Positions 102 through 24,516 of a stretch of 32,188 nucleotides of DNA are shown one piece after another (positions within the stretch are counted from its first letter, which is position 1; every line of letters begins with the position of its first letter). Source of the DNA: Alphaproteobacteria bacterium (GTDB taxonomy: Bacteria > Pseudomonadota > Alphaproteobacteria > Rhizobiales > JAJRRF01). The notes beneath the pieces are model-generated. The model had not been told where the DNA came from. It ran no database searches and saw only the letters and a list, made by a program, of their open reading frames with translations. Location of the stretch: assembly GCA_024279735.1 (NCBI GenBank), contig JAJRRF010000162.1, positions 1 to 32,188 of the forward strand. Reading direction: 5' to 3'. Position numbers and translations under genes: made by a program.

Positions 102-135
102 TAACATCCCCCAAAAGTCCACAGCTCAAGTTACA

Positions 136-765
136 CTACCCGATCCTGGCAAAACGCTTGCCAAAAAATGTGAAGGATGCCCGCATCATTTTTTGCCCCA
201 ATGCGCTGGACATGCCTGGCAGGGCAACAGGGGTTTCTGCTAGGAAGACGCTGACCACCCTGTTGATATAGTGATAGACCACAGCAGTCCCCATAACTTG
301 GGGAATGTCAGCGATATCTATTTTGGGATTGGCAAGAATATCAGAGCCAGGGGACAGTGTGGCATTAGCCCATTCATGGGCCGTAGAGATATTGTCTGGT
401 AAGTGGCTTGGTTTGTCGAGGGAACCAGCTCCCTCAATTATGCTTTCAAACAAAGAGGCATGTACAGTAACGCAATAGGGGCACTTGTTCAGTTCTGAAA
501 CAGCTGCTGCCACGGCTTCACGCATGGCACGCCCGTGATAGTTTACAACATAAGATTCCCTTGCCGCGCTCCACACACCTGCCATTAGTTCTGGGTCACT
601 GCTGTGTATTGTGACAGGTGGCGCAATCTGGAACTCGTCTCCACATTGCTCCAGAACCTGTCGAGCCAGAGGGTGTTTTGGTGTCAGGTTCGGCCTGGAC
701 AGATAGCGGATAGCCTGGGGTGCGGCCTTGCGAAAAATTTGGTTTTCGATGGCATGAAATAACAT
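136..765 (-). CDS. AhpD-like / carboxymuconolactone decarboxylase-family protein (ORF can extend to 798)
   Basis: CPYCVTVH motif of the AhpD/CMD fold. ATG at 765 is preceded by an AAAGG-like RBS. Divergent from a TetR gene. Confidence 0.75.
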   Translation of the reverse strand: MLFHAIENQIFRKAAPQAIRYLSRPNLTPKHPLARQVLEQCGDEFQIAPPVTIHSSDPELMAGVWSAARESYVVNYHGRAMREAVAAAVSELNKCPYCVTVHASLFESIIEGAGSLDKPSHLPDNISTAHEWANATLSPGSDILANPKIDIADIPQVMGTAVVYHYINRVVSVFLAETPVALPGMSSALGQKMMRASFTFFGKRFARIG

Positions 766-8481: not shown

Positions 8482-10128
<1,647 letters not shown>

Positions 10129-10142
10129 GCAGCTACCAAATT

Positions 10143-10186
10143 TTTGGGCGGCGTTTGCGATACGCGCCGCCCAAAGTTTTTATTTT
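10143..10186 (+). terminator. Intrinsic terminator-like hairpin after coxA
   Basis: TTTGGGCGGCG / CGCCGCCCAAA 11-bp perfect stem followed by GTTTTTATTTT. Confidence 0.75.
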
Positions 10187-10222
10187 CAGGCTCTCTTTAT
10201 GGGAGAGCCTGAAAATAAAAAC
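10176..10222 (+). promoter_or_regulatory. Second hairpin, 20-bp perfect stem, overlapping the T-tract of the first
   Basis: GTTTTTATTTTCAGGCTCTC - TTTATGG - GAGAGCCTGAAAATAAAAAC. Confidence 0.7.
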
Positions 10223-10265
10223 GGTTCGATATTTTTCTGGAGATATATTGAGGTAAAGGAGAGAA

Positions 10266-10733
10266 GTGATTCGCCTTTCAGTTCCTGTACTTTGGATAGC
10301 TGGTGTTGGGTATTTTGCATTGGTTGGGGGATTGTCAGCTTTAGTATTGATGAAGGAAGGAAGTGCCACTGGATCGGGGGTGTCTGATTATTACTATTTC
10401 CAGGCACATGCTTATTTTGTTTTGTCCATCGCTGTTATGTCTTTCTTTTTTACTGCCTGGTATTATATGTTTCCAAAAATAACAGGTCTGCGCTACCATG
10501 AACTGATAGGGCAAATCCATTTTTGGATGACGATGTCTGGTACGGCTCTGTCTTTCTTTTTCAAGCACCTTATCGTGGCGGAGGGAATGCCTAGAAGAAT
10601 AGTTGATTACCCTGATGGTTATGCAATGTGGCAGTTTTTATCTGGGATAGGGGTTGATATAAGTCGTACTGTGATTTTTGTTTTTGGCGTGGTGGTTGCC
10701 CTTATCCAAAGAAAAAAGGTCGCTGACCTTTAG
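10266..10733 (+). CDS. Stand-alone C-terminal CoxA-like protein (helices IX-XII of haem-copper oxidase subunit I)
   Basis: GTG start with AAGGAG RBS. Collinear with the C-terminal third of the CoxA encoded just upstream: YYYFQAHAYFVLS, AWYYMFPK, IGQIHFW, GMPRRIVDYPDGYAMW. Confidence 0.85.
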   Translation: MIRLSVPVLWIAGVGYFALVGGLSALVLMKEGSATGSGVSDYYYFQAHAYFVLSIAVMSFFFTAWYYMFPKITGLRYHELIGQIHFWMTMSGTALSFFFKHLIVAEGMPRRIVDYPDGYAMWQFLSGIGVDISRTVIFVFGVVVALIQRKKVADL

Positions 10734-10812: not shown

Positions 10813-11730
10813 ATGAGTGATATACAGACAGGTTTGGATGAGGTTGGTGAAGTCAAGGACTATATAGCCCTGCTGAAGCCCCGTGTCATGTCGCTTGTTG
10901 TCTTTACAGCCCTTGTCGGAATGGTTTTGGCTCCTGGTGACATCCATCCTGTTTTTGGCTTTGTTGCCTTGCTCTGTATTGCTATTGGTGCTGGGGCATC
11001 TGGTGCACTTAACATGTGGTATGATGCCGACATTGATGCCATTATGGCGCGGACAGCTTCCCGCCCGATACCGCGCGGCGCGATGCCAGCTGGCGAAGCC
11101 CTGACTTTTGGGACTGTGTTATCTGTTGGCTCTGTCCTGACACTTGGCGTTCTTATTAACTGGATGGCGGCATTTTTGTTGGGCTTTACCATTGTCTATT
11201 ATTTCTTTTTCTACACCATGTGGCTGAAGCGCAGAACGGCGCAAAACATTGTTATTGGTGGTGCAGCTGGTGCCTTTCCCCCAATGGTGGGCTGGGCAGC
11301 TGTCACAGGCAGTGTTTCGCTGGACAGTGTGATCCTGTTCCTAATTATCTTTATCTGGACTCCGCCCCATTTCTGGGCATTGGCTCTGTACCGTTCAAAA
11401 GATTATGAACGTGCCTCAATTCCGATGTTGCCTGTGACCGCAGGGCCTGAAGTCACCCGCCGTCATATCTGGCTTTACACTTTGGTGCTTGTGCCGACGA
11501 GTATCTTGCCATTTGTGACAGGTCTTGCTGATCTGCTGTATTTGGTGACGGCTTTGGTTGCAGGGGGAGCCTTTATGCTATTGGCTTGGCGGGTCTATAA
11601 ACCGCGAAAAAATATAGAATATCCTGCTGATGAACGTCAGCTGTTTAAATTCTCAATCTTTTATCTTTTCCTTCTCTATGCCGTTTTACTGATAGAGCAT
11701 ATGTTGAATTTTAGATTTATATGGAGCTGA
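10813..11730 (+). CDS. ctaB: Protoheme IX farnesyltransferase (haem O synthase)
   Basis: '[18 protein letters not shown]', '[21 protein letters not shown]', '[27 protein letters not shown]'. ATG at 10813 is a probable start; ORF opens at 10777. Confidence 0.96.
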
Positions 11731-24441: not shown

Positions 24442-24516
24442 TGGTGGGGACGACTGGGATTGAACCAGTGACCCCTTCGATGTCAACGAAGTGCTCTCCC
24501 ACTGAGCTACGCCCCC
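24442..24516 (-). tRNA. tRNA-Val (GAC)
   Basis: GGGGGCGTAGCTCAGTGGGAGAGCACTTCGTTGACATCGAAGGGGTCACTGGTTCAATCCCAGTCGTCCCCACCA folds as a full cloverleaf. Anticodon loop TTGACAT; CCA encoded. Confidence 0.97.

Follow-up and report, generated by a model that had tools for sequence, protein, structure and literature searches.

A separate open reading frame for helices IX-XII of cytochrome oxidase subunit I beside an intact coxA in a Rhizobiales draft genome

Subunit I of the aa3-type cytochrome oxidases (CoxA, or CtaD; PF00115) is defined by twelve helices, the CuB ligands of helices VI-VII, and two haem-a ligands, in helices II and X. In bovine numbering, His376 ligates haem a3 and His378 ligates haem a. 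A C-terminal piece of this subunit is made as its own polypeptide in protists, where the nucleus-encoded Cox1-c, about 25 amino acids of hydrophilic tail, makes up for the absence of this part from the main Cox1 (PMC5664110). The open-access literature yielded no stand-alone C-terminal CoxA fragment from bacteria. Extra copies of the gene occur in Rhizobiales, the order of the genome treated here: five relatives (L155, L156, L157, L159 and L162) carry an orphan second coxA with no recognisable coxB or ctaB nearby, and in L157 and L159 the product of the gene that follows it is short, resembles a membrane protein and is of similar type in both.

The DNA analysed here (the window, 32,188 nucleotides) is one entire contig of a 3.03-Mb draft genome, and the relatives of its ctaB are mostly from Rhizobiales/Hyphomicrobiales. 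It carries an oxidase cluster in the order coxB, coxA, mini-CoxA, ctaB, a small ORF, ctaG, coxC, DUF983, surf1 and thrC, with names assigned from similarity together with established gene order; synteny was also observed. A tRNA-Val(gac) gene lies elsewhere in the window, at 24442-24516 on the reverse strand. The features of the coxA-ctaB region that concern the encoded proteins are as follows.

8530-10128, forward strand: coxA (ctaD), full-length and canonical aa3 oxidase subunit I of 532 amino acids, recognized by Pfam and NCBIfam
10255-10261, forward strand: Shine-Dalgarno-like AAAGGAG, well spaced at 4 nt 5' of the GTG, read from the sequence
10266-10733, forward strand: the mini-CoxA ORF, 155 amino acids, GTG start, no internal stops, corresponding to helices IX-XII of CoxA
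10407-10415, forward strand: codons H48-A49-Y50, matching CoxA H393-F394-H395 with F394 changed to A and H395 to Y
10587-10613, forward strand: codons M108-P-R-R-I-V-D-Y-P116, the haem-propionate Arg-Arg/DYP loop, with all invariant residues retained
10813-11730, forward strand: ctaB (haem O synthase), the next gene 3' of the mini-CoxA ORF after a 79-nt gap

Homology of mini-CoxA to CoxA far exceeds chance. BLASTP aligns it with residues 349-500 of the upstream CoxA only (66 of 154 positions identical, or 43%; E 1e-40), with two gaps of two residues each, both in frame. The Pfam COX1 model matches from profile position 302 to 433 of 436 with 65 bits (cut-off, 34.8 bits), while the NCBIfam CtaD_CoxA model is covered only from 325 to 473 of 504 and scores far below its full-length cut-off. 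The best PDB sequence matches are again to this C-terminal part of aa3 oxidase subunit I. The GTG coincides exactly with the helix IX boundary and follows an in-frame TAA at 10254-10256, read directly from the sequence. The initial annotation, made from the letters of the sequence, had described a product that aligns only with the C-terminal part of the upstream CoxA, a start and ribosome-binding site of its own with no internal stop, and a diverged, truncated paralogue in which HFH has become HAY, so that the haem-a ligand is gone while the a3 histidine and Arg-Arg pair are kept; each of these points was borne out by the alignment and the 155-codon open frame.

By bovine numbering, we take CoxA H393 to be the a3 histidine, present in mini-CoxA as H48, and H395 to be the haem-a histidine, which is Tyr in mini-CoxA. 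The Arg-Arg pair (CoxA R455/R456) is retained as R110 and R111, and the MPRR, DYP and HFW motifs are shared along with the same predicted fold. Against this, mini-CoxA has none of helices I-VIII of CoxA/CtaD, and so neither the CuB ligands nor the haem-a ligand of helix II; it also lacks the haem-a histidine of helix X, the residues of the Mg site and the SPP..H tail at the C-terminus. Changes affect about half of the invariant residues, and of the 60 columns in which at least 98% of 115 CoxA sequences agree, 32 are retained. Bovine Asp364 and His368 belong, together with Arg438, to a Mg-water cluster (PMC10194837); mini-CoxA has an equivalent of Arg438 and none of the other two. Because the CuB ligands reside in the absent helices, the protein by itself cannot act as an oxidase; judged from its sequence, it is a truncated homologue of COX1 that does not have the features by which oxidase subunit I is defined. 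An AlphaFold2 model (pLDDT 82, pTM 0.78) predicts all four helices and matches PDB CoxA chains with a TM score of about 0.8; since the underlying alignment of 47 CoxA segments is nearly all CoxA, the model shows compatibility with the CoxA fold and not independent proof of folding. Mini-CoxA and Cox1-c are alike in being C-terminal pieces of subunit I made as separate polypeptides. Unlike Cox1-c, mini-CoxA consists of four membrane helices beside a complete CoxA, with no N-terminal partner found in its own genome, and unlike the orphan copies of the Rhizobiales relatives, which are full-length and 74-79% identical to the window CoxA, it is truncated.

The interval between coxA and the mini-CoxA ORF contains two overlapping hairpins; the U-tract of the first contributes to the second hairpin's 5' arm.

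10142-10186, forward strand: terminator-like hairpin with U-tract 3' of coxA, GC-rich, stem of 12-13 bp, loop of 9
10176-10222, no strand assigned: 22-bp hairpin with a loop of 3, its core occurring once in the genome

The folding z-score of this region is -6.4, and terminator-like sites by a strict pattern are present in 11 of 100 coxA-ctaB gaps. With the terminator-like hairpin lying between them and coxA, mini-CoxA and ctaB are probably downstream of a terminator; coxA and mini-CoxA, from this arrangement, appear not to be simply consecutive in one message. A search for a consensus promoter for mini-CoxA found none. The longer hairpin was considered as a mobile repeat and set aside on account of its single genomic copy, and Rfam returned only sub-threshold microRNA matches to a long hairpin.

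We judge it just about probable that mini-CoxA is a truncated, non-catalytic paralogue of CoxA that has been maintained as a membrane protein. Evidence for this comes from the kinds of substitution that the frame has accepted. In simulations, the CoxA segment drifted neutrally to the loss observed at 67 invariant sites (31 changed). Under such drift a stop codon is predicted in about 96% of runs, and about five nonpolar residues at invariant membrane sites should be replaced by polar ones. Mini-CoxA has no stop, an outcome of 3.7% of neutral runs, and none of its 23 changed nonpolar membrane sites has turned polar, an outcome of 0.3%; the two occur jointly in 0.05% of runs (joint neutral P about 0.0005). 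The stop count by itself is weak evidence (P 0.016-0.037). Over the whole ORF, the proportion of conservative replacements is 0.36, versus 0.22 under neutral drift (P 0.003), and invariant residues of the Arg-Arg loop are kept at 8 of 8 positions versus 28 of 61 elsewhere (Fisher P 0.005, the loop having been chosen post hoc). Changes at invariant sites are as a class not clearly conservative (about 9 of 32 by hand count), and a looser count gives three new charged residues within the helices. Taken together, unconstrained decay appears unlikely as a fit to this substitution pattern, and the favoured history is one in which, for most of its existence, the frame was preserved to encode a membrane protein other than an oxidase. 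Constraint is much weaker than that on CoxA. A dN/dS near 1, which the initial annotation had named as an argument against a retained paralogue, was not obtained: pairwise values against CoxA are 0.18-0.32, with dS saturated.

The strongest competing explanation, quite possible though short of probable, is that the ORF is what remains, at the 3' end, of a second coxA that arose by duplication and then lost its first two thirds by deletion; the frame would have survived by chance or by weak past constraint, and any product would be inert. Second coxA genes are found in several relatives, which makes duplication a common feature of the order; 31 of 67 otherwise invariant sites have been lost; and mini-CoxA has the lowest GC3 (0.40) and the weakest codon-usage score among the window genes compared. 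The main support for this explanation is another CoxA piece in the same genome, recovered when that genome was searched with PF00115 and full CoxA. These searches returned coxA, two cbb3-type CcoN, one other full-length subunit I, mini-CoxA, and the following feature.

Contig C259 of the same genome (G000, L003), 113-418, forward strand: CoxA tail covering helices XI-XII with a portion of X, on a contig of 1.9 kb

This tail is flanked by a divergent reverse ORF and ppa, and like mini-CoxA it is an N-terminally truncated CoxA fragment with the Arg-Arg loop (here MPRRIADYP). It is shorter than mini-CoxA, has no plausible start or ribosome-binding site, and keeps more of the invariant residues (25 of 36 in the shared part). 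It looks like a decayed coxA copy, and if so read it shows that coxA copies are lost piecemeal in this genome. Only one derived state is common to the two fragments, which suggests that the C259 tail is probably of separate origin from mini-CoxA. Two other comparisons were set aside: the overlap of kept sites between mini-CoxA and the tail is not significant (P 0.45), and in a tree both sit at the maximum branch length, an extreme end branch that renders the placement of mini-CoxA meaningless. That mini-CoxA might be a decayed second full-length coxA was counted by the initial annotation as evidence against its view; the C259 tail makes such decay more credible. Set against decay are the substitution results above, the clean start and ribosome-binding site at a helix boundary, which would be coincidence, and the expectation of a frameshift. 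With the indel:substitution ratio assumed to be 0.05, the absence of any frameshift has P 0.016; the argument needs indels to amount to about 5% of substitutions or more. The absence of stops and frameshifts and the joint neutral P may still be compatible with a recent loss of function. A maintained four-helix membrane protein ranks as somewhat more likely than a late-stage relic.

The relic explanation also draws on the lack of an orthologue in every set searched; mini-CoxA is known so far from one genome. No homologue was present in about 99 other coxA-ctaB gaps, none in 80 named coxA-ctaB loci, and no orthologue in 61 relatives for which every match was listed, none of them of the same family or genus. 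Nothing closer than CoxA was found among the matches listed for samples from the order (397 genomes), the class (386) and the phylum (399); these samples (about 1,200 genomes) overlap, and thresholds differed between searches. A pattern scan of GTDB contigs and viral contigs gave no orthologue, and searches of GTDB contigs, viral contigs and plasmids gave either none or just CoxA-like matches below 60% identity; the stricter searches could overlook a strongly diverged mini-CoxA. Short-frame matches in G617:C96 and G625:C183 lie at contig edges and are read as cut full-length genes (the contig end was checked for G625), as are short matches at contig edges in L045, L083, L109 and others. In one relative (G038, L013), the 504-nt coxA-ctaB gap holds a different ORF, unrelated to mini-CoxA and predicted to encode a membrane protein of at most 168 amino acids. 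A lack of orthologues in related genomes had been named in the initial annotation as evidence against its view, and none was found in these sets, which lack a genome of the same family. As far as the sampled families go, the absence speaks against the idea that mini-CoxA is an accessory gene of long standing, conserved across the order.

For mini-CoxA as a maintained paralogue, a course of events can be proposed. On the ctaB side of the coxA terminator, an N-terminally truncated, catalytically dead copy comprising helices IX-XII only would be translated into a four-helix membrane protein whose N- and C-termini are presumably cytoplasmic. The protein would contribute no redox chemistry; its most likely role, tentatively, would be to pack as a non-catalytic partner on the oxidase or on assembly intermediates, through surfaces normally offered by CoxA helices IX-XII and with the Arg-Arg/DYP loop facing the periplasm. 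The earlier proposal of a retained paralogue with a candidate role as assembly factor, scaffold or decoy is supported in part: it is retention that gains from a substitution pattern unlikely for unconstrained decay. That mini-CoxA, a repurposed piece from the C-terminal third of CoxA, has become a real accessory or assembly subunit of an aa3 oxidase and acts on its own parent, in a Rhizobiales family not yet sampled, seems rather unlikely.

Its use as a regulatory decoy, limiting CoxA assembly by replacing CoxA against CoxB/CoxC or a haem-inserting factor, is a good deal less probable still. In its favour, the periplasmic loop residues and a3 histidine are kept while CuB ligands are lacking, and a gene on the ctaB side of the terminator could be expressed apart from coxA. 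Complementation of a separate N-terminal CoxA fragment by mini-CoxA helices IX-XII, for which the split respiratory subunits of eukaryotes such as Cox1-c offer a precedent (PMC5664110), is scarcely credible and looks close to refuted, since searches of its own genome with full CoxA and PF00115 found no N-terminal fragment and the haem-a ligand is gone.

If cells make and use mini-CoxA, it would be one of few instances in which part of a respiratory catalytic subunit persists as a separate membrane protein next to the intact enzyme, and would test naturally which subunit I surfaces are important in assembly. Should it be a relic, it would present a duplicate coxA trimmed from the front while its tail stays open. 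The same 3-Mb genome also carries two separate cbb3-type ccoNO pairs, on contigs C280 and C64 (L140 and L141).
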